The notes beneath the pieces are model-generated. The model was not told where the DNA came from, ran no database searches, and saw nothing but the letters and a program-made list of their open reading frames with translations. 64,000 nucleotides of DNA, from the NCBI RefSeq assembly GCF_034479515.1, contig NZ_CP140152.1:1612001-1676000 (forward strand), in the 5' to 3' direction. How positions within the stretch are numbered: position 1 is the stretch's first letter; each line of letters begins with the position of its first letter. The translations under genes and the position numbers were made by a program. Below are positions 9,291 through 35,250 of this stretch, piece after piece. The DNA comes from Duganella zoogloeoides. GTDB lineage: Bacteria; Pseudomonadota; Gammaproteobacteria; Burkholderiales; Burkholderiaceae_D.

Positions 9291-9296
9291 TATAAT
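9291..9296 (+). promoter_or_regulatory. -10 hexamer TATAAT of the LacI-type regulator, next to its ATG
   Basis: A perfect TATAAT followed by 7 bases and then ATG 9304. No Shine-Dalgarno sequence is present and the -35 is weak. Transcription would start at or next to the ATG, implying a leaderless mRNA. Confidence 0.55.
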
Positions 9297-9303
9297 CGGG
9301 CCC

Positions 9304-10359
9304 ATGACCATCAAAAACGACCAATCCGAGTTGCGCGTCCTGCGCACCGCCAACGCCGACATTCCGGTCAGCGGCGCCACGCTGGCCGATGTGGCCAAGG
9401 TGGCCGGCGTGTCGCCGATCACGGTATCGCGCGCGCTTAACCAGCCGCAGCTGGTGCGGCCGAACACGCTGGCGCGGGTGCAGCAGGCGGTGCAGCAGAC
9501 CGGCTACGTGAAAAACATGATGGCCGGTGCACTGGCATCCAACCGCAGCAAGCTGGTGTCGCTGGTGATCCCCAGCATCGCCACGCCGATCTTTGCCGAA
9601 ATGGTGGAAGCGGTGACCGATACCCTCACGCAAGCCGGTTACCAGTTGCTGCTGGGCTTGTCACGCTACGAGCCGTGGCGCGAGGAAGTGCTGGTCGAAA
9701 CCATCCTCAGCCGTCGCCCGGACGGCATCATCGTCACCGGCACGCTGCATACCGACAACACGCGGCGGCGGCTGGAGCTGTCCGGCGTGCCGGTGGTGGA
9801 GGCGTGGGACATGGCGTCGTCGCCGATCGACATGGTGGTGGGCTTTTCACACGAAGAAGTGGGACAGGCCACGGCGCGCCATTTATTGAAACGCGGCTAC
9901 CGCCGCATTGCGATTTTGGCCGTCAACGACCCGCGCGGCGCGCGCCGCAACCAGGGGCTGCAGGCGGAACTGGCGCGCCACGGCGTGGCGGTGGCGGCGG
10001 TGCAACTGATGCCGCTGCCCACCACCTTGCAACTGGGTCGCGAGGGACTGGCGCAACTGCTGGCGCAAGCGCCCGAGCTCGACGCCGTCGTGTGCAGCTC
10101 CGATACGCTGGCGCACGGCGTGCTGACCGAGGCCGTCAGCAGGGGACTGGACGTGCCGGGGCAGGTGGCCGTGATCGGTTTTGGCGATCTGAATTTCGCA
10201 GCCCACACGTATCCGCCGCTCTCGACCATCCACGTCGATGGCCGCAACATCGGCACCGTGGCGGCGCAACTGCTGCTGGACCGGCTCGATGGCGGCAACC
10301 AGGTGCGCCCGCGCGTGATCGATACCGGCTTCGAGTTGATACACCGGGCCAGTACCTGA
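9304..10359 (+). CDS. LacI-family transcriptional regulator (gluconate/sugar-acid GntR-like subgroup)
   Basis: 351 aa. The N-terminal LacI helix-turn-helix is at about residues 20-60 (TLADVAKVAGVSPITVSRALN). It is followed by the hinge and a periplasmic-binding-like sensor domain (VSLVIPSIATPIFAEMVEAV ... DGIIVTG ... VIGFGDLNF). The wording resembles the gluconate-responsive GntR group. It is divergent from gudD-gudP and probably represses them in the absence of sugar acid. ATG 9304 is preferred over one 27 bases upstream, which would overlap the -10 hexamer. Confidence 0.9.
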   Translation: MTIKNDQSELRVLRTANADIPVSGATLADVAKVAGVSPITVSRALNQPQLVRPNTLARVQQAVQQTGYVKNMMAGALASNRSKLVSLVIPSIATPIFAEMVEAVTDTLTQAGYQLLLGLSRYEPWREEVLVETILSRRPDGIIVTGTLHTDNTRRRLELSGVPVVEAWDMASSPIDMVVGFSHEEVGQATARHLLKRGYRRIAILAVNDPRGARRNQGLQAELARHGVAVAAVQLMPLPTTLQLGREGLAQLLAQAPELDAVVCSSDTLAHGVLTEAVSRGLDVPGQVAVIGFGDLNFAAHTYPPLSTIHVDGRNIGTVAAQLLLDRLDGGNQVRPRVIDTGFELIHRAST

Positions 10360-24998: not shown

Positions 24999-25964
24999 AT
25001 GCAGACAACCCGCCCGGAGCATCCCGCGCGCGCCCACGGCAGCGCTGCGGTCATCGCGGAAATTTCCGCCGGCCTGTTGGCCCCCACCGCCCATACGTCC
25101 CCCAAGTTCCTGTACGACAGTCTCGGTTCGCGGCTGTTCGAAGCGATTTGTGAATTGCCCGAGTACTATCCCACCCGCACCGAAGCGGCGATCTTCGCGG
25201 CCCACGGCGCCGCCATGGCGCAGGACATCGGCACCGGCGTCTCGCTGATCGACCTGGGCGCGGGCAATTGCGCCAAGGCGGCCAGCCTGTTCCCGCTGCT
25301 GCAACCGGCGCAGTACGTGCCGGTCGATATCTCGCGCGACTTTCTCACCGAGTCGGTCACGCGCCTGCAACAGCGCTTTCCGCACATCGAGATGACCCCG
25401 CTGGGGCTCGACTTTTCCGGCGGCTTCGCGCTGCCCGACAGCGTGCGCTCCAGGCGCCGGCTGTTTTTCTACCCCGGCTCATCGATCGGCAATTTTTCAC
25501 CGGAACAGGCGATCGCGTTTTTGCACGGCCTGCGCGCCAATGCCGGCGACGACGGCGGCCTGCTGATCGGCGTGGACCTGGTCAAAGACAGCGCGGTGCT
25601 CGACGCGGCATATGACGACGCCATCGGCGTCACCGCCGCGTTCAACCTGAACATGCTGCGCCACGTGAACCACCTGCTCGGCGCCGACTTCAATGTGCGC
25701 GACTGGCAGCACCACGCGTTTTTCAACCCGCACGAGAAGCGCATCGAAATGCACCTGGAGGCGCGCAGCGCCGTCACGGTGCGCTGGCAGAACCATGAGC
25801 GCCACTTCGCCAGCGGCGAACGCATCCACACCGAAGACAGTTACAAATACACGCGGCAGTCGTTCGTCAGCCTGCTCGAACAAGCGGGCTTTGCCACCAA
25901 CCGCGTATGGACCGACGAGAACAACTGGTTTGCCGTGATCTACGCCCGCGTCATCCCCGACTGA
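24999..25964 (+). CDS. egtD: L-histidine N-alpha-methyltransferase (ergothioneine/selenoneine precursor synthesis)
   Basis: 321 aa SAM-dependent enzyme that trimethylates histidine to hercynine. Diagnostic stretches are SPKFLYDSLGSRLFEAICELPEYYPTR, LIDLGAGNCAKA, FFYPGSSIGNF and the C-terminal IHTEDSYKYTRQSF. Hercynine is the acceptor for both EgtB and SenA, and both genes are in this window. GGCAGAG precedes the ATG weakly. It is divergent from the PhnD-like operon and its stop is 11 bases before egtB. Confidence 0.95.
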   Translation: MQTTRPEHPARAHGSAAVIAEISAGLLAPTAHTSPKFLYDSLGSRLFEAICELPEYYPTRTEAAIFAAHGAAMAQDIGTGVSLIDLGAGNCAKAASLFPLLQPAQYVPVDISRDFLTESVTRLQQRFPHIEMTPLGLDFSGGFALPDSVRSRRRLFFYPGSSIGNFSPEQAIAFLHGLRANAGDDGGLLIGVDLVKDSAVLDAAYDDAIGVTAAFNLNMLRHVNHLLGADFNVRDWQHHAFFNPHEKRIEMHLEARSAVTVRWQNHERHFASGERIHTEDSYKYTRQSFVSLLEQAGFATNRVWTDENNWFAVIYARVIPD

Positions 25965-25975
25965 GGAAATCCCTG

Positions 25976-27241
25976 ATGGATATGCGCCAGCCGCAAGTAA
26001 TTTACACGCAACCGGGTGACACGCAACCGAGCGATACGTCACTGGGCGACTTGCCCCTGGACGCACGCTACAGCGCGGTCCGGGCCCACACGCTGGCGCT
26101 GGCCGCGCCGCTCAGCGACGAGGACTGCGGCGCCCAGTCGATGCCCGACGCCAGCCCGGTCAAGTGGCACATGGCGCACACCACGTGGTTTTTCGAGACC
26201 TTCATCCTCGAGCGCATGGAGCCGGATTTTGCGCCATTCCATCCGGCGTTCCGGGTGCTGTTCAATTCGTATTACAACGGCGTGGGCGACAAGCATCCGC
26301 GCGCCCAGCGCGGCCTGCTCACCCGGCCCGCCATGGCGCAGGTGCGCGCCTACCGTCACGATGTCGATGCGCGCGTGGCGCGACTGCTGGCATCCGCACT
26401 CGATGCACAGCAGCGCGCGCAACTGGAACTGCTGGTCACGCTGGGACTGCAACACGAGCAGCAGCACCAAGAACTGATACTCACCGATGTCAAGCACCTT
26501 CTGGCGCAAAGCGCCTTGCTGCCTGCTTACCTCGATGCGCCGCGCCCCGCTGCGCCGCCGGCCGCGCCGTTGGCCTGGGTAGATATTGACGGCGGCCTGG
26601 CCGACATCGGCCATGCTGGGGACGGCTTTTGTTTCGATAACGAATTGCCGCGCCACAAGCAATACGTGGCGCCGTTCCAGTTGGCCTCGCGCCTGGTCAC
26701 CAACGGCGAGTACCTGGCTTTTGTTGCCGCCGGCGGCTATTTCAATGCCGCGCTGTGGCTGGCCGAAGGCTGGGACTGGGTGCGCTCGCAGGGCTTGAAG
26801 TCGCCGTTCTACTGGCGCTGCGACGAGCAGGGCGCCTGGACCGAATTTACGCTGCACGGCGAGCAGCCGCTCGATCTCGAGCGTCCCGCGACCCACCTGT
26901 CGCTGTTTGAAGCCGATGCTTATGCGCACTGGGCCGGTGCGCGCCTGCCGACCGAAGCGGAGTGGGAAGTTGCAGCCGCGTCGGCGCAAAATTCGGAACT
27001 GCAACAGATGTTCGGCCACTGCTGGCAATGGACCAGCAGCAGCTATGCGCCATACCCCGGCTTCCAGGTCGCGCCCGGTGCGCTGGGCGAATACAACGGC
27101 AAGTTTATGTTGAACCAGTACGTGCTGCGCGGCTCGTCGTGCGCCACGCCGGACGGCCACGCGCGCGCTAGCTATCGCAACTTTTTCCCGGCCGGTGCAC
27201 GCTGGCAGTTCACCGGCTTGCGGCTGGCGCGCCAGGCTTGA
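25976..27241 (+). CDS. egtB: Ergothioneine sulfoxide synthase-like non-heme iron enzyme
   Basis: 421 aa. The N-terminal DinB_2 domain has the three iron histidines: H68 in KWHMAHTTWF, and H160 and H164 in HEQQHQE. The C-terminal formylglycine-generating-enzyme-like domain ends in YVLRGSSCATPDGHARASYRNFF. EgtB joins hercynine with cysteine or gamma-glutamylcysteine using O2. No egtA, egtC or egtE lies nearby, so the cysteine-using type is possible. GAGG precedes ATG 25976. It is the second gene of the egtD-egtB operon, and a paralogue of senA 5.5 kb away. Confidence 0.92.
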   Translation: MDMRQPQVIYTQPGDTQPSDTSLGDLPLDARYSAVRAHTLALAAPLSDEDCGAQSMPDASPVKWHMAHTTWFFETFILERMEPDFAPFHPAFRVLFNSYYNGVGDKHPRAQRGLLTRPAMAQVRAYRHDVDARVARLLASALDAQQRAQLELLVTLGLQHEQQHQELILTDVKHLLAQSALLPAYLDAPRPAAPPAAPLAWVDIDGGLADIGHAGDGFCFDNELPRHKQYVAPFQLASRLVTNGEYLAFVAAGGYFNAALWLAEGWDWVRSQGLKSPFYWRCDEQGAWTEFTLHGEQPLDLERPATHLSLFEADAYAHWAGARLPTEAEWEVAAASAQNSELQQMFGHCWQWTSSSYAPYPGFQVAPGALGEYNGKFMLNQYVLRGSSCATPDGHARASYRNFFPAGARWQFTGLRLARQA

Positions 27242-27985: not shown

Positions 27986-29668
27986 GGCGGCCTTGGCCTG
28001 CGCTGCGTCGATGGCGTTCAACTGGCGGTTCACCGCGCTGAGCACCGCCTTGAACGACGCCGTCAGAATATTGCTGTCAGTGGCTGCGCCGAACAGCGTT
28101 GGACCGTTGGCCAGGCGCAGTTCCACATAGCACGCCGCCTTGGCGTTGGCGCCCGAGCCGATCGAATGCTCGTGGTAGTCCATCAGCTTGATGTCGAGGC
28201 CCAGTGCATCGACAAACGCGTCGATCGGACCGTTGCCGCCGCCTTTCAGGGCCAGCGCCGCATCGCGGTGGGTGAGGGCAATGTCGATCTGCACCGGCTC
28301 GTCGCTGGTGGTGTCTTCCACCATCTTGTGGGCGTTGTACGCGTACGGCTGGTTCTGCTCGAAGTATTCGCGGCTGAAGATCTCGTAGATGCCTTCGGCA
28401 GTGATTTCCAGGCCGGTCTGGTCGGCCACGGCTTGCACCGCGCGCGAGAACTCGATTTGCAGGCGGCGTGGCAACACCAGGCCATAGTCCTGCTCCAGCA
28501 GGTAGGCCATGCCGCCCTTGCCCGACTGGCTGTTGACGCGGATCACGGCATCGTAGCTGCGACCGAGGTCGGCCGGGTCGATCGGCAAGTACGGGATTTC
28601 CCACAGCGCGCCATCTTTTTGCTGCGCAAAACCTTTTTTGATCGCATCCTGGTGCGAACCGGAGAAGGCGGTGAACACCAGGTCGCCCACGTAAGGGTGG
28701 CGCGGGTGCACCGGCAACTGGTTGCACTCTTCCACGCACTTGCGCACTTCGTCGATGTCGGAGAAATCGAGGCCCGGGTGCACGCCTTGCGTGTACAGGT
28801 TGAGCGCCAGCGTGACCAGGTCGACGTTGCCGGTACGCTCGCCGTTACCGAACAGGCAGCCCTCGACGCGGTCGGCGCCAGCCATCACGGCCAGTTCGGC
28901 CGAAGCCACGGCAGTGCCACGGTCGTTGTGCGGGTGCACGCTGATGATCAGCGCGTCGCGGCGGGCCAGCTTGCGCGACATCCATTCGATCTGGTCGGCG
29001 TAGATGTTGGGGGTGCTGCACTCGACCGTCGAAGGCAGGTTGATGATCATTTTCTTTTGCGGCGTCGGCTCCCAGATGGCGGTGACGGCGTCGCAGATAT
29101 GCTTGGAGAAATCGAGTTCGGTCGTGGAGAACGATTCCGGCGTGTACTCGAAACCCCAGTCGGTTTGTGGATGCTGCTTGATCAGTTCCTTGACCAGCTT
29201 GGTACCGGTGGTGGCGATATTGGTGATTTCTTCACGCGACATGCCGAACACCACTTTGCGGAACACCGGTGCTACCGAGTTGTACAGGTGGATGATGGCG
29301 CGCTTGGCGCCTGCAGCCGATTCCACGGTGCGGCGGATCAGTTCATCGCGCGACTGGGTCAGCACGATGATGGTGACGTCGTCGGGAATGCGGTTCTCTT
29401 CCACCAGGCGGCGCACGAAGTCGAAGTCGGTTTGCGACGCGGACGGGAAGCCCACTTCGATTTCCTTGAGACCCACCTTGATCAGGAGGTCGAAGAAGCG
29501 CAGCTTTTTCTCGATGCTCATCGGCTCGATCAGCGCCTGGTTGCCGTCACGCAGGTCGGTGCTCATCCAGATCGGCGGCTTGCTGATCACATTGTTAGGC
29601 CATTGACGATCCGACAACTGGATGGCGGGGAAGGCGCGATATTTCGCTGCTGGGTTCTGCAACATCAT
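27974..29668 (-). CDS. leuA: 2-isopropylmalate synthase, long form
   Basis: 564 aa. It condenses acetyl-CoA with 2-oxoisovalerate in the first committed step of leucine synthesis. The metal/substrate motif [11 protein letters not shown] and [17 protein letters not shown] are present, as is the C-terminal regulatory domain that binds leucine ([19 protein letters not shown]). AGGAG precedes the double ATG. It sits between the egt and sen genes but has no functional link with them. No leader peptide with leucine codons is seen upstream. Confidence 0.96.
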
Positions 29669-30050
29669 GGGGTGCTCCTGGGTCTCGAATTTTGAAAAGT
29701 GCTGTGCCAGCGGATGGCTGGCGCGGTGTGGCGGGCGGCTGCCGGGCGGCCACGGAACGCTAGGCCAGGCAACCGATCGGTAGCTTTAGCAATAGCTTAG
29801 CGAAAAAATCGCCAGTGCGGGATGGAGCATGGGTAGCCGTGGTCAACATCGGTGCAAACTTTCCTGGATTTGGGGAGACTGTGTGGCTTATGGCCGACAC
29901 GGGTACAGCTGAACGCTAAATTAAGCGTGTGCAGGTAGGCGCGCTGCTAGCGATAGGGCGCTAGCCAACGGCAACAGGAAAGCGGATAGGTGCAGATGCG
30001 AAGTCATGCCCTAAATGTACGAGATTGCAAGCCCCGCTGTCAAGGATTTG
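29669..30050. other. 382-bp region without a gene upstream of leuA
   Basis: It holds the leuA ribosome site (AGGAG) and promoter region, and an inverted repeat GCTAGCG ATAGGG CGCTAGC near 29949-29968. No ORF with a credible start was seen, no T-box or leucine-rich leader. The part next to 30050 is the 3' flank of the DUF1993 gene. Confidence 0.5.
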
Positions 30051-30548
30051 TTACGCAGAATCGAACGAGAAGCAGGGTGGATACTGGTGGAAGCCGTCGA
30101 AATCGGCCTTGCCGATCGGCACCCCGGCCTGGCGCGCGATCGCGTACACCATCGAGTAATGGAAAAAGAAGTTGGGCACCGCATACAGCAAAAAGTACTC
30201 TTCGCTGTCGAGCGCCAGGCCTGCAAACCCGGCGGTGGTGGCAACGGGCCGCGCCGCCACGAGAAAATCCTCATCGGGAATCGCCGCCAGGTAAGCCACC
30301 GCGGCATCGAGCTGCGCGTGCACGCTGGCAAAACTGTCGTGGTCGGCGCCGAACGACACGATTTCCCGGCCCGCGAGCGGGCAGGTGCTGCGCAAGGTAA
30401 AACCGATGGCCGTGCGCGCCTGTTGCAGCAGCGGAAACATGGTCGGATGCAGCCGCGCGGTGCCAACGTCGGCATCGAACCGTTCGGCCACCAGCAGCAA
30501 TTGCTTGAGCCGCGCCAGGTAATGCAGAAACAACTTCGTCGGCACCAT
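30051..30548 (-). CDS. DUF1993 (DinB-like fold) protein, last gene of the sen operon
   Basis: 165 aa. DUF1993 belongs to the DinB/YfiT-like fold, the same fold as the metal-binding N-terminal domain of EgtB and SenA. It starts 13 bases after the selD stop with GGAG at the right distance, so it is co-transcribed with senB-selD. Compared with the second DUF1993 protein in this window (49863-50372), two histidines are replaced: LLYAVPNFFFH against LFHYALPHFYFH. Only one histidine of that helix remains, so metal binding is doubtful. A role in selenium or thiol chemistry is inferred. Confidence 0.85.
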   Translation of the reverse strand: MVPTKLFLHYLARLKQLLLVAERFDADVGTARLHPTMFPLLQQARTAIGFTLRSTCPLAGREIVSFGADHDSFASVHAQLDAAVAYLAAIPDEDFLVAARPVATTAGFAGLALDSEEYFLLYAVPNFFFHYSMVYAIARQAGVPIGKADFDGFHQYPPCFSFDSA

Positions 30549-30561
30549 GCCCGCTCCGTGT

Positions 30562-31608
30562 TTAGTTGACCGTCACGCGCGGCGCGCCGTCGGCCATGCG
30601 GCCGATGACAGCGGCTTCACCGAAGCCTTCGCGCGCAAACAGCGCCAGTACGTCGTCGACGCTGGCCGCGTCGCACGACACCAGCAGGCCGCCCGAGGTT
30701 TGCGGGTCGGTCAGCAGCGCGTGGCGCGCGGCCGAAATCCCCGGCGCCAGGTCGACGTCCTTGCCGTACGCCTCCCAGTTGCGGCCCGACGCGCCGGTGA
30801 AATAACCGTCGGCGGCCAGCTGCTCCACGCCCGGCAGCAGCGGAATGGCGTCCATGTCCAACTGCGCTTCGAGCTTGGCGCCGCGCGCCAGTTCCAGCAG
30901 GTGGCCCAGCAAACCGAAGCCGGTGACGTCGGTCATCGCGTGCACGCCGGCCATATCGGACAGCGCCTTGCCCGGCTTGTTGAGCTTGGTGGTATTGGCG
31001 ATCATGGCGGCGTAGCCGTTCGCATCGAGCTGGTCTTTCTTGAGCGCGGCCGACAGCACGCCCACGCCCAGCGGCTTGCCCAGGATGAGCACATCGCCGG
31101 CGCGGGCGTCGGCATTGCGCTTGATTTTCGACGGGTGGATCAGGCCCATCACCACCAGGCCGTAGATCGGCTCGACCGAATCGATGGTGTGGCCGCCGGC
31201 GATCGGGATGCCCGCTTCGGCGCAGATCGATTCGCCGCCCTTGATGATCTGGCCGATGGTCTCCACCGGCAGCTTGTTGATCGGCATGCCGACCAGGGCC
31301 AGCGCCATGATCGGCGTGCCGCCCATCGCATACACGTCGGAGATGGCGTTGGTGGCGGCGATGCGGCCGAAGTCGTACGGATCGTCGACGATCGGCATGA
31401 AGAAATCGGTGGTGGCGATCAGCGCCTGCTCGTCGTTGAGCAGGTAGACGGCCGCGTCGTCGGCGGTTTCGATCCCGACCAGCAGTTCCTTCGGCACCGG
31501 GAAACCGCTGGAATTCTTGAGGATCTCGGACAGCACGCCGGGCGCGATCTTGCAGCCGCAGCCGCCGCCGTGCGAAAAGGAGGTCAGTTTGATAGCGTCG
31601 TTGCTCAT
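30562..31608 (-). CDS. selD: Selenophosphate synthetase (SelD/SenC)
   Basis: 348 aa. It makes selenophosphate from selenide and ATP. The catalytic Cys/Lys motif is GGGCGCK near residue 17-20; TTDFFMPIVDDPYDFGRIAA and the C-terminal DPQTSGGLL match the AIR-synthase-like SelD family. Cysteine, not selenocysteine, is used. Its ATG overlaps the senB stop (ATGA), indicating coupling. In the selenoneine pathway this protein is called SenC. No selA, selB or mnmH is in the window, so a dedicated role with SenB is likely. Confidence 0.93.
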   Translation of the reverse strand: MSNDAIKLTSFSHGGGCGCKIAPGVLSEILKNSSGFPVPKELLVGIETADDAAVYLLNDEQALIATTDFFMPIVDDPYDFGRIAATNAISDVYAMGGTPIMALALVGMPINKLPVETIGQIIKGGESICAEAGIPIAGGHTIDSVEPIYGLVVMGLIHPSKIKRNADARAGDVLILGKPLGVGVLSAALKKDQLDANGYAAMIANTTKLNKPGKALSDMAGVHAMTDVTGFGLLGHLLELARGAKLEAQLDMDAIPLLPGVEQLAADGYFTGASGRNWEAYGKDVDLAPGISAARHALLTDPQTSGGLLVSCDAASVDDVLALFAREGFGEAAVIGRMADGAPRVTVN

Positions 31609-32756
31609 GGTTTGTTTCCTTCTTGAGGGTTCAGCAGATTATCCACCAATGCGAGCAATGCTGCCCGCTCGGCCGCTGGCGCGAACAAGGGCGCGCGCGC
31701 GGCGCACTGTTCGCGCAGCAGCTGGTGGAAACGGGGTTCTTCGATGGTGCGGTCGATCAGGCGCGCCAGCGCGGCGGCGTCGCCGGGCGGGAAGTAGCCG
31801 GCATAGTCGTCCCCCAGCATGCCGCGGTTGCCGTTGATGTCGCTCGCCAGCACCGGTACGCCGGCCGTCACCGCTTCGATGATGACGTTGGCGCCGCCTT
31901 CCATGTGCGAGGTAAGCGCCATCGCGTGGCAGCGTTTCAGGCGCTGGCGGGTGGCGGCATGGGCCATGGCGCCCAGCCAGCGGTAGCGCGGCTGCTGCGC
32001 AGCGGTTGCCTGCGCGGCCGCGGCCAGCTCCGGTTCCAGTACCCCGCCGATATGGACCAGGCGTGCGGCCGGCGCCCGCACCAGTTGCGCCGCGCGCATG
32101 AAGGTGAGCGGATCTTTTTCATGGCGCAGGTGGCCTACCATGGCGATGTCGAACCGGCGGCGCGCCGTGGCGGGCACCGGCGCGAGCGCGGTGGCGGACT
32201 GGTAGATCACGTGGGCGCCGGCGCGCAGCGCCTCGGGCAGCAGCATGCGGCCGGCCGGCTGCAGCAGCACCAGCGCGGTGGCCTGCACCAGCGCGCGCTG
32301 GGCGTCGGCGTCGACCGCGATGTCGCGATAGAGGTCGGTGCCGGTCAGCAGCAGCACGGAAGGGCGGTCGGGCCAGGCGCGCGTCCACGCGTCGAGCGAT
32401 GGCGCCGAGCGGCGCGCGTGCAGCGCGATCAGCAGGTCGGGGGGCGGCGCGTCACGGCCTGGCGTCGCGCCGGTGGCCGTGGTGGTCACCAGTCCGGCGG
32501 CCTGTGCCTCGGCAGCAGCAGTAGTGGCGCTGGCGCCGGCACCGGCATGTGCCTCGGCAGCAGCAGTGGCTTCGGCGCCGGCATTGGCGTGGGCAGCAGC
32601 CGCGCCAGCGGCGCGTGCCGCCGGCCACTGCTGCGCCAGCGTCACCCGGTAATGTGCGCGCAAAAACCTGGCCCAGCGGCTGGCGCTCTGCCAGTTGCCG
32701 TTGTTGGCGCCCGCCGCAGCGGGGCCGACGATCCAGATATGCTGTCGTGGCTTCAA
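31605..32756 (-). CDS. senB: Selenosugar synthase, glycosyltransferase fold (SenB)
   Basis: 383 aa, GT-B glycosyltransferase. SenB combines selenophosphate with a UDP-sugar to give the selenosugar used by SenA. The N-terminus IWIVGPAAAGANNGNWQSA is typical, as is DLLIALHARRSA, and the C-terminal EGGANVIIEA is the donor-binding loop. Start TTG 32756 is fixed by this N-terminus, with GGGAAAA upstream. Residues about 46-100 are an alanine-rich low-complexity insert encoded by tandem repeats; the usual loop here is shorter. First gene of the operon with selD and DUF1993, divergent from senA. Confidence 0.88.
   Translation of the reverse strand: MKPRQHIWIVGPAAAGANNGNWQSASRWARFLRAHYRVTLAQQWPAARAAGAAAAHANAGAEATAAAEAHAGAGASATTAAAEAQAAGLVTTTATGATPGRDAPPPDLLIALHARRSAPSLDAWTRAWPDRPSVLLLTGTDLYRDIAVDADAQRALVQATALVLLQPAGRMLLPEALRAGAHVIYQSATALAPVPATARRRFDIAMVGHLRHEKDPLTFMRAAQLVRAPAARLVHIGGVLEPELAAAAQATAAQQPRYRWLGAMAHAATRQRLKRCHAMALTSHMEGGANVIIEAVTAGVPVLASDINGNRGMLGDDYAGYFPPGDAAALARLIDRTIEEPRFHQLLREQCAARAPLFAPAAERAALLALVDNLLNPQEGNKP
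32503..32589. repeat. Imperfect tandem repeat (about 45 bp x 2) in senB
   Basis: TGTGCCTCGGCAGCAGCAGT begins a unit at 32503 and again at 32548; copies are about 45 and 42 bases. It encodes the alanine-rich insert of SenB. The frame is kept. Confidence 0.7.
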
Positions 32757-32768
32757 AGATTTTCCCGT

Positions 32769-32774
32769 TACAAT
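32769..32774 (+). promoter_or_regulatory. -10-like hexamer TACAAT in the 24-bp senB/senA gap
   Basis: TACAAT is followed by 6 bases and then ATG 32781; no Shine-Dalgarno sequence is present. It suggests a leaderless senA transcript. The -35 would lie inside senB and is not convincing. Confidence 0.4.
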
Positions 32775-32780
32775 CGCCGC

Positions 32781-33986
32781 ATGAATACCAGCCCCTGTTC
32801 GTTCCGGACCGCCACGCCGCAGCAGCTCGCGCAGTCACTCCGACTGGCACGCGATTATACGCTGCGGCTGTTCGACTGCCTTGCCGCCGCCGGCATGGAT
32901 GCGCCCGCGCGCGTGCCTTACCTGCGCACGATTAATCCGCCACTGTGGGAAATCGGCCACACGGCCTGGTTTGCCGAATGGTTCATCCTGCGCGAGGCCA
33001 CGTCCAGCCATCCGGCCGACGGCAACGGCAGCTGCCTGCTCACGCGCGGCGATGACTGGTTCGACTCGGCGCTGGTGCCGCACCGCAGCCGCTGGACGCT
33101 CGACCTGCCGCCTCCCGCGCAGCTGAAAACCTATTGTCGCGAAGTGCTCGACCGGGTGCTCGACAAGCTCGCGCGCGAACCCGATACCGACGCCGCGCTG
33201 TACCCATACCGGCTGGCGCTGGCGCACGAGGACATGCATGGCGAAGCATTGCTCTACACCTTGCAGACGCTGGGGCTGGCCGCGCCGCCAGGCGTCGTGC
33301 CGGCCGCACCGGAACAACGTGGTTATGCGCCGTCGGAGATCGGCTTTGCCGGCGCCACGTTCGAGCTGGGCGCCAACGGCCCCGGCTTTGTCTTCGACAA
33401 CGAGCGCCAGGCGCACCGGTTCGACATCGCGCCGTTCGCCATCGACAGCACGCTGGTGACCAACGACCAATTTGCCGCTTTTGTCGACGATGGCGGCTAC
33501 GACCATCGCCAGTTCTGGAACCGGGAAGGCGCCGACTGGCTGCTGCGCCAGGAGCGCAGCGCGCCGCGCTACTGGCACCGCGACGGCGCGCAGTGGCGCA
33601 CCGTGCGCTTCGGACAGGCGGCAGACCTCGACGGCGCCGAGCCGGTACGCCACATCACCCTGCACGAAGCACTGGCTTATTGTGCGTGGGCAGGACGGCG
33701 TTTGCCGAGCGAAGCGCAATGGGAGTTTGCTGCATTGTCGGGCCACCCGGCGTTTCGCTGGGGCCAGTTGTGGGAATGGACGGCTACGCCGTTCGAGCCG
33801 TACCCGGGCTTCGCGGCGGACCGGTACCGCGAGTATTCGCAGCCGTGGTTTTCCAGCCACCAGGTGCTGCGCGGTGCGTCGTTTGCCACGCCTGCGCGCT
33901 TTATCTCGCCGCGCTACCGCAATTTTTATACGCCGGAGCGCGACGACATGTTCGCGGGACTGCGCACCTGCGCCTTGCCGCGCTGA
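32781..33986 (+). CDS. senA: Selenoneine synthase, EgtB-like non-heme iron enzyme (SenA)
   Basis: 401 aa. It forms the C-Se bond between hercynine and a selenosugar. N-terminal DinB_2 domain with iron ligands H60 in WEIGHTAWF and H149, H153 in HEDMHGE; C-terminal FGE-sulfatase domain ending QVLRGASFATPARFISPRYRNFY. It is distinguished from EgtB mainly by context: senB and selD are divergent, 24 bases away, and a separate egtB exists in the window. Its start ATG 32781 has no ribosome site. Hercynine would come from the nearby egtD. Confidence 0.9.
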   Translation: MNTSPCSFRTATPQQLAQSLRLARDYTLRLFDCLAAAGMDAPARVPYLRTINPPLWEIGHTAWFAEWFILREATSSHPADGNGSCLLTRGDDWFDSALVPHRSRWTLDLPPPAQLKTYCREVLDRVLDKLAREPDTDAALYPYRLALAHEDMHGEALLYTLQTLGLAAPPGVVPAAPEQRGYAPSEIGFAGATFELGANGPGFVFDNERQAHRFDIAPFAIDSTLVTNDQFAAFVDDGGYDHRQFWNREGADWLLRQERSAPRYWHRDGAQWRTVRFGQAADLDGAEPVRHITLHEALAYCAWAGRRLPSEAQWEFAALSGHPAFRWGQLWEWTATPFEPYPGFAADRYREYSQPWFSSHQVLRGASFATPARFISPRYRNFYTPERDDMFAGLRTCALPR

Positions 33987-34017
33987 GCGGCGCCAAGGGC
34001 AGGTGGTATGGTGAAGA

Positions 34018-35250
34018 TCAGATCAGCGATTCGCCCAGTTCCACCAGGTCGTCCGCGTATTCCGATTCGATCAGCTCTTTACGGGCCACGCCGCTGCGAT
34101 ACGCTGCGGTGGCGATTTTCGGCGTGACGCCGCGCAGCAGGCGCGGGTCCAGCAGACCTGGCACCACGTAGTCCTTGCCGAAGCGGGCATCGCTGCGGGC
34201 CATGTCGGCCAGGGCCACCACGCAGGCGCGCTTCATTTCCTGGTTGATGGTCGAGGCGCCGCAATCGAGCGCCGCGCGGAACAGGTAAGGGAAGCACAGC
34301 GCGTTGTTGATCTGGTTCGGGTAGTCCGAGCGGCCGGTGGCGATGATGGCGTCGGGCGCCACTTCGCGCACCAGTTCCGGGCGCAGTTCCGGCTCCGGGT
34401 TGGCCAGCGTGAAGACGATCGGGTGCGGGTTCATGGCGACGATGTCGGCCTGCGACAGCACGCCCGGACCGGATACGCCGAGGAACACGTCGGCGCCTTC
34501 CATCACTTGCGACAGCGTGGTGAATGGTGTATCGCGCGCCCATGCGGCCTTCTCGCCGTCGAGCGGACGCACGGTGGACAGCACGCCCTTGCTGTCGCAA
34601 ACAAAAATATTGTGTTTTTGCGCGCCCAGGTCCACCAGCAGTTCCAGGCAGGCCATGGCCGCGGCGCCGGCGCCCGAGCACACGATCTTGACGGTGGCGA
34701 TATCGCGGCCGGTCATTTCGATGGCGTTGAGCATGCCGGCGCCCACGACGATGGCGGTGCCGTGCTGGTCGTCATGGAAGACGGGAATCGACAGGCGCTC
34801 GCGCAGCTTGCGTTCGATGTAGAAGCACTCGGGCGCCTTGATGTCTTCGAGGTTGATGCCGCCGAAAGTAGGGTGCAGCGAGGCGATGATGTCCACCAGC
34901 TTGTCGGGATCGGCTTCGTCGATCTCGATGTCGAAGGCGTCGATGCCGGCGAACTTCTTGAACAGGACCACTTTGCCTTCCATGACCGGCTTGCCGGCCA
35001 GCGCGCCGATGTTACCGAGACCCAGCACGGCGGAACCGTTGGTGATCACGCCCACCAGGTTGCGCTTGGCGGTGTATTCATAGGCCTTGGCCGGCTCGCG
35101 GGCGATTTCCATGCACGGCGCAGCCACGCCCGGCGAGTAGGCCAGCGCCAGGTCTTCCTGGGTGGCGACGCTCTTGGTCACTTCGATGGCGATCTTGCCG
35201 GCGCGGCCGGCACGGTGATATGCGAGGGCCTTCTGTTCAATGGTGCTCAT
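34018..35250 (-). CDS. Malic enzyme without phosphotransacetylase domain
   Basis: 410 aa. It converts malate to pyruvate and CO2 with NAD(P). Motifs: [34 protein letters not shown], the active-site [11 protein letters not shown], and [16 protein letters not shown] for the cofactor. Large MaeB enzymes are about 760 aa with a C-terminal PTA-like domain; this one stops at the end of the catalytic part. AAGGAAA precedes the ATG. Coenzyme preference is not determined. Confidence 0.92.

Follow-up and report, generated by a model that had tools for sequence, protein, structure and literature searches.

Within a 64,000-nucleotide stretch of the Duganella zoogloeoides genome (contig NZ_CP140152.1, positions 1,612,001 to 1,676,000; hereafter the window, whose own numbering is used), the adjacent genes senA, senB and selD probably constitute a selenoneine locus whose selD is shared with other selenium pathways and whose compact, entangled control region holds the promoter of the senB-selD operon embedded in senA itself. 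The three genes, which the initial annotation had grouped as a complete senABC set, are intact open reading frames whose products pass curated cut-offs: senA (32781-33986, forward strand, ATG start, 401 amino acids (aa)) for selenoneine synthase, an EgtB-like non-haem iron enzyme; senB (31605-32756, reverse strand, putative TTG start, 383 aa) for a Se-glycosyltransferase, i.e., the selenosugar synthase; and selD, or senC (30562-31608, reverse strand, ATG start, 348 aa), for a selenide water dikinase. The senB and selD reading frames share 4 bases, and the start codons of senA and senB lie exactly 24 bases apart. Going by family membership, SelD would form selenophosphate, SenB would join it with a UDP-sugar into a selenosugar, and SenA would combine the selenosugar with hercynine (from EgtD) to give selenoneine.

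The predicted -10 element of senB-selD, TATAAT, occupies 32854-32859 on the reverse strand, inside senA codons 25-27 (Asp-Tyr-Thr), where the ATTATA of senA reads as TATAAT on the opposite strand and is oriented toward senB. Its conservation was followed within the family, in which 97 of 294 genomes had SenB over the cut-off; these (own genome included), together with G238, below the cut-off, gave 98 fetched loci; the fetched DNA included senA in 81 and senB without it in 17. Six of the 81 senA loci were omitted from the codon alignment (their joined hits contained a stop or fell short of 330 aa) and one of the 75 aligned genes was gapped at codons 25-27, leaving 74 rows. In 63 of these, Tyr-Thr is preceded by Asn (27 rows), Asp (22) or His (14), and every one of the 63 spells ATTATA, as does none of the other 11. 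T-ending codons reached 1.00 at codon 26 and 0.97 at codon 25, the top two of 72 columns (median 0.34), and the best SenA tree implies no fewer than 13 changes of residue 25 among its motif-bearing rows. We infer from these patterns that an embedded promoter constrains the SenA protein at codons 25-27.

It is very unlikely that this is instead an ordinary sen locus, in which SenA itself needs Asp/Asn/His-Tyr-Thr and ATTATA reflects codon preference. That explanation would suit the near invariance of Tyr26 and Thr27 in the 33-row alignment (the structure alignments had 33 and 22 rows) and the abundance of T-ending codons at other columns too (e.g., 0.82 at Tyr352), but the T-ending codons at both positions in 63 of 63 rows stand against a senA usage of ~0.32 for GAT and ~0.42 for TAT, and the SenA of Variovorax paradoxus has Arg-Arg-Thr there. 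The loci in which the two genes have parted bear on it as well. TATAAT is still present upstream of senB in 16 of the 17 family loci without senA nearby (G293 has none), usually as CGTATAATCGC and 36-48 nucleotides (nt) ahead of the point where the SenB match begins, which argues against a role confined to SenA. SenA over the cut-off was encoded elsewhere in 12 of these 17 genomes and was not found in the other five, and ATTATA occurs at codons 25-27 in none of these 14 relocated senA genes from 12 genomes; two of their products keep the Tyr, as Glu-Tyr-Thr with other codons, which favours a need of the enzyme for the residue, but the remaining 12 have no Tyr there.

The same separations count against another alternative, that the motif serves to bind a regulator common to both genes and is not the -10 element of senB, which we consider quite unlikely. 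With its flanks it reads GCG-TATAAT-CGC, a partial inverted repeat, and there was no visible -35, as a regulator site would allow, but TATAAT matches the -10 hexamer perfectly and is correctly oriented, it stands at a normal promoter distance in the senB-only loci, and it is absent from the relocated senA genes. On the tree, 11 of the 14 relocated genes fall among motif-bearing rows, nine of them in one group that, together with two motif-bearing rows next to it, has support 99, and two at a weakly supported fork; a further two have no firm placement and one lies outside. As to the genomes themselves, the five with senB-selD and no SenA over the cut-off (loci L043, L065, L075, L214 and L217 of G251, G098, G149, G223 and G232) have best matches to the SenA model of 393-403 bits, an EgtB-like strength, and G128 and G195 (L222, L225, L237 and L238) each have two SenA over the cut-off, neither beside senB.

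A named set of loci, i.e., the best 80 of 230 matches, which shares part of its assemblies with the unnamed set and leans to close relatives, had the motif in 71 of the 80; of the 69 with divergent senB, 68 had it. No SenB was found at E 1e-40 in the genomes of the other 11, in a search where the named controls were silent and the model matched in the family and order scans; these 11 are L142, L145, L160, L173, L175, L176, L178, L184, L185, L187 and L189, and some of the assemblies are perhaps incomplete. selD is divergent from senA in eight of the 11, and in the three Pseudoduganella among those without senB it is directly divergent and the motif is present. Three Janthinobacterium with senA alone have no motif and keep the TACAAT described below.

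The second predicted element of the control region, TACAAT at 32769-32774 on the forward strand, is a candidate -10 for senA and stands 6 bases before its ATG. In 40 of the 81 loci TACAAT precedes an in-frame senA start by 4-9 nt (the mean for shuffled upstream sequence was 0.2), and of 41 TAnAAT cases 31 lay exactly 6 nt before the ATG; seven of the 14 relocated senA genes also keep TACAAT at 6 nt, one as TAAAAT (read by eye). The same test found none at egtB (28 loci), egtD (19), selD (89), leuA (40) or senB (98). With the usual spacing between a -10 element and the transcription start, an element 6 nt away puts the start on the A of the ATG, so that senA would start at 32781 and its message is probably leaderless. 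For Burkholderia cenocepacia, the excerpted text of PMC4603805 describes leaderless genes that have a TA-rich motif immediately upstream.

Several observations weigh against a leaderless senA facing an embedded senB-selD promoter. The motif is missing from 11 of the 74 divergent senA rows, no TATAAT lies within 260 nt upstream of senB in 13 of the 81 loci, and 41 of the 81 have no TACAAT at senA. Among the named genomes without senB, five divergent senA-selD loci lack the motif, and three of these five have GATTATCG between the genes (read by eye). No conserved or recognisable -35 was found for either promoter when the promoters were stacked, and a consensus promoter scan lists neither -10 site. 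The two relocated SenA that have the Tyr with other codons indicate that the residue alone is not tied to the promoter. When divergence and motif were compared with correction for the tree, there were three independent pairs, a mean of 1.8 as expected and 0 against (p 0.5); the pairs not in the expected direction show no difference, and the result is not significant. Finally, ATTATA occurs in none of 20 senA loci from other families of the order, and the motif is therefore at most a clade trait; the embedded promoter seems to belong to the Oxalobacteraceae part of the family. Nor was TACAAT found before the ATG in these 20 loci, in three of which (L264, L269 and L271) the view began at about residue 13 and the upstream DNA was not covered. 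An Rfam element in the control region was considered and rejected, the sole match in 29500-34500 having 17 bits for a gathering score of 100 and lying outside the control region.

As the embedded-promoter model has it, senA would be read leaderless from the TACAAT near its ATG, and senB-selD would be read the opposite way from the TATAAT inside senA codons 25-27, with a senB transcription start near 32847, facing the senA start at 32781, and a senB leader of ~91 nt. The divergent transcripts are thus predicted to overlap on both strands over 67 base pairs (bp), 32781-32847, a value obtained from the two -10 positions and the customary -10-to-start distance. Sequence and conservation together present an opposed pair of -10 elements with transcripts set to overlap. 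Given opposed promoters and a transcript overlap of ~67 nt, passing polymerases should interfere, and polymerase passage and antisense pairing would couple the senA and senB-selD units. That the opposed promoters go further and act as a selenium allocation switch is unlikely; here senB-selD and senA would suppress one another by collision and through the antisense leader, cells would be in one of two states, general selenium supply or selenoneine making, and SenA residues would be fixed for the purpose.

Arrangements of this kind have counterparts. In the class 1 integron the Pc promoter lies inside intI1, face to face with PintI1, and interference is reported in the accessible portion of PMC5559693; as predicted here, the promoter of a divergent unit sits in the coding sequence of its neighbour and faces the neighbour's promoter, but the genes are unrelated, and the integron case has reporter data where ours has codon conservation and gene separation. 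The scbA-scbR pair of Streptomyces coelicolor, for which the part of PMC3134472 available to us describes divergent, face-to-face promoters with a 53-bp overlap and a modelled bistable switch, is similar in layout and in the size of its overlap (53 bp and ~67 bp predicted at sen), but belongs to an antibiotic-signalling regulon, whereas sen consists of two biosynthetic units with no known regulator. Embedded face-to-face sen promoters were not found in the open-access literature listed, the scope of which left subscription papers, preprints and the original 2022 paper outside. The pathway itself is known and the locus is a further member of it; the sen control region looks new within that scope.

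The sharing of selD is the other half of the main finding. SelD scored 543.8 bits against NF002098 (cut-off 299) and 440.6 bits against TIGR00476 (cut-off 125), and carries C17-G-C19-K20, the CGCK motif pointed out initially, in which we take C17 and K20 to be active-site residues with a catalytic role. A profile search of the whole genome (one contig of 6.32 megabases) found this to be the sole SelD over the cut-off, and the genome also has SelA, tRNA-Sec, MnmH (mnmH) and a formate dehydrogenase gene with one in-frame TGA (UGA); selD is hence shared and not a dedicated senC. Consequently, the claim of a complete senABC locus held for the SenA, SenB and SelD assignments and needed amending for the last gene, the genome's single selD, which should also serve selenoprotein synthesis and tRNA modification. 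The SelD of the senB-selD operon should be the only selenophosphate source for selenoneine, selenocysteine and tRNA 2-selenouridine, and the operon would feed the last two as well as the sen pathway.

A SelD search at E 1e-40 in 73 of the 98 senB genomes fetched, and in G100, which lacks SenB, found exactly one SelD in 72 of the 73 and none in G162. The latter, rated a complete genome, has a divergent SenA (42%)/SenB (48%) pair at L063. In 89 of the 98 family loci selD is the same-strand neighbour of senB, and no selD was in the fetched stretch of the remaining nine, one of which is only 4.5 kilobases (kb) long. Hercynine has a candidate source close by: egtD, a histidine methyltransferase gene (24999-25964, forward strand; 391.8 bits against TIGR03438, cut-off 290.9), ends 4.6 kb from selD, and by its family assignment EgtD can supply hercynine for SenA.

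It is extremely unlikely that SenA is a second EgtB and that the locus yields a sulfur rather than a selenium product. The two enzymes do have a fold and conserved histidines in common, and H60, H149 and H153 of SenA, present where they had been noted and presumably iron ligands, align with columns shared by EgtB, but SenA adjoins SenB and SelD, and its scores separate it clearly: 523.7 bits against the NCBIfam SenA model NF041186 (cut-off 420) and 290.6 against the EgtB model TIGR03440 (cut-off 360). The distinct ergothioneine sulfoxide synthase gene egtB, whose existence had been claimed from the outset and is borne out, adjoins egtD on its 3' side (25907-27241 from the first ATG, forward strand; the true start is probably near 25979), and its product behaves in the opposite way, with 547.5 bits against TIGR03440 and 398.3 against the SenA model. 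A tree built with IQ-TREE from 38 rows picked partly at random (26 SenA, V. paradoxus included, and 12 EgtB, Chloracidobacterium included) put SenA and EgtB on the two sides of a branch with a Shimodaira-Hasegawa-like approximate likelihood ratio test (SH-aLRT) support of 100; it supersedes a FastTree result in which the re-rooted SenA group had a support of 0.296. The proposal that SenA is not simply another EgtB was therefore upheld, with SenA falling outside the EgtB clade.

Kayrouz et al. (2022) are said to have described the sen cluster of Variovorax paradoxus, in which three enzymes likewise form one cluster. Comparison with characterised enzymes, as had been suggested for the locus, gave the V. 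paradoxus SenA and SenB as the best matches in the PDB. For SenA these reached 7.9e-90 (8ryz) and 8.6e-90, and its predicted structure (mean predicted local distance difference test score (pLDDT) 82.2) had 8ryz as the top Foldseek match, with a template-modelling (TM) score of 0.84; the nearest PDB sequence to the window EgtB is the Chloracidobacterium EgtB 8qf6 (1.5e-131), versus 1.9e-35 for SenA. EgtB (ergothioneine) and OvsA (ovoselenol) are related to the window SenA in fold and sequence but have lower sequence and structure scores against it than SenA enzymes do, and EgtB is a clade apart in the tree, which covered SenA and EgtB. The V. paradoxus cluster is treated in PMC9814287, and further in the portions seen of PMC10702425 and PMC10891094.

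SenB scored 386.6 bits against TIGR04348 (cut-off 300) and matched the V. paradoxus SenB structure 8jjq at 7.8e-77, and Foldseek ranks 1-15 for its model were SenB throughout. It keeps the equivalents of N20, H58, D86, R155, K158, E231 and E239, seven residues discussed for V. paradoxus in the excerpted texts of PMC10891094 and PMC10702425, and has Ser for T23; the catalytic lysine K158 and the UDP-sugar residues N20, E231 and E239 are thus all represented. V. paradoxus SenB has Val157 and EGGAHV, whereas the window SenB, like most relatives, has Glu and EGGANV: Glu takes the place of Val157 in 87 of 88 family rows and at all 30 order-level loci, and Asn that of the His in 85 of the 88 rows and 25 of the 30 loci. 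The family counts cover 88 of the 98 loci, the others having no usable joined hit or one interrupted by a stop. V. paradoxus, plus G162 in the family set, is therefore the exception at position 157, and the pair Glu157/Asn235 was discarded as an Oxalobacteraceae marker, since Glu157 is also found in all 30 order-level loci. In the part of PMC10891094 consulted, Val157 is near the N-acetyl group and Glu is not among the replacements named; the sugar preference of SenB with Glu157 may differ from that of V. paradoxus.

A second difference from the V. paradoxus cluster is a long, alanine-rich, low-confidence loop in the window SenB, residues 55-97 (32466-32594, reverse strand). The stretch from NNGNW to LLI is 93 aa in the window, 77 in G199 and 36-53 in the remaining 90 of the 92 loci (of 98) measured; the DNA has tandem repeats at 32498-32614, within senB, and the pLDDT of the SenB model is below 50 at residues 55-80 and 88-97. 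The loop is probably a tandem-repeat expansion. The senB of a 90%-identical relative (L076) has an ATG one codon later than the window TTG (read by eye).

The divergent layout and its 24 bases, singled out in the initial annotation, are real, but nothing special. senA and senB are divergent in 80 of the 81 family loci that have both genes, and the start-to-start gap has an estimated median of 32 bases in the 81 loci, which makes a gap of 24 ordinary. A sample of 150 genomes from the order (three of the family included), 46 of which had SenB over the cut-off, gave senA beside senB in 20 of 30 fetched loci, divergent in all 20, so that the idea of the layout as a peculiarity of the window was dropped. 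The sole non-divergent pair of the 81, at L103 in genome G004, has an egtD homologue between the two genes. The closest named SenA is that of Duganella phyllosphaerae, with 90% identity among the best 80 of 230 matches, from which own-genome records were possibly excluded.

These results show a Duganella-like genome that combines the selenoneine pathway with a selenoprotein system, a single SelD being available to the two, and offer a testable model for the control of sen genes. They also provide a candidate case of a promoter dictating the codons, and perhaps the residues, of an overlapping enzyme, for which the gene separations are natural experiments, and the relatives with senA only or senB only point to uses of SenA or of the selenosugar outside the known pathway.

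Of the neighbouring features, a DUF1993 gene (30051-30548, reverse strand; PF09351, 108.4 bits) sits 3' of selD, between selD and leuA, and falls within the span 30051-33986 marked initially. It was rejected as a fourth pathway gene: of the loci whose neighbourhoods were compared, just those of the window genome and D. phyllosphaerae have such a gene directly after selD. In 17 further rows, from overlapping sets, a DUF1993 relative flanks senB-selD on the opposite side. Elsewhere in the window, TATAATCG at 9291-9304 has TATAAT 7 nt before a likely ATG and is another leaderless-type start; the gene that follows reads by eye as a LacI-family regulator (MTIKND...).

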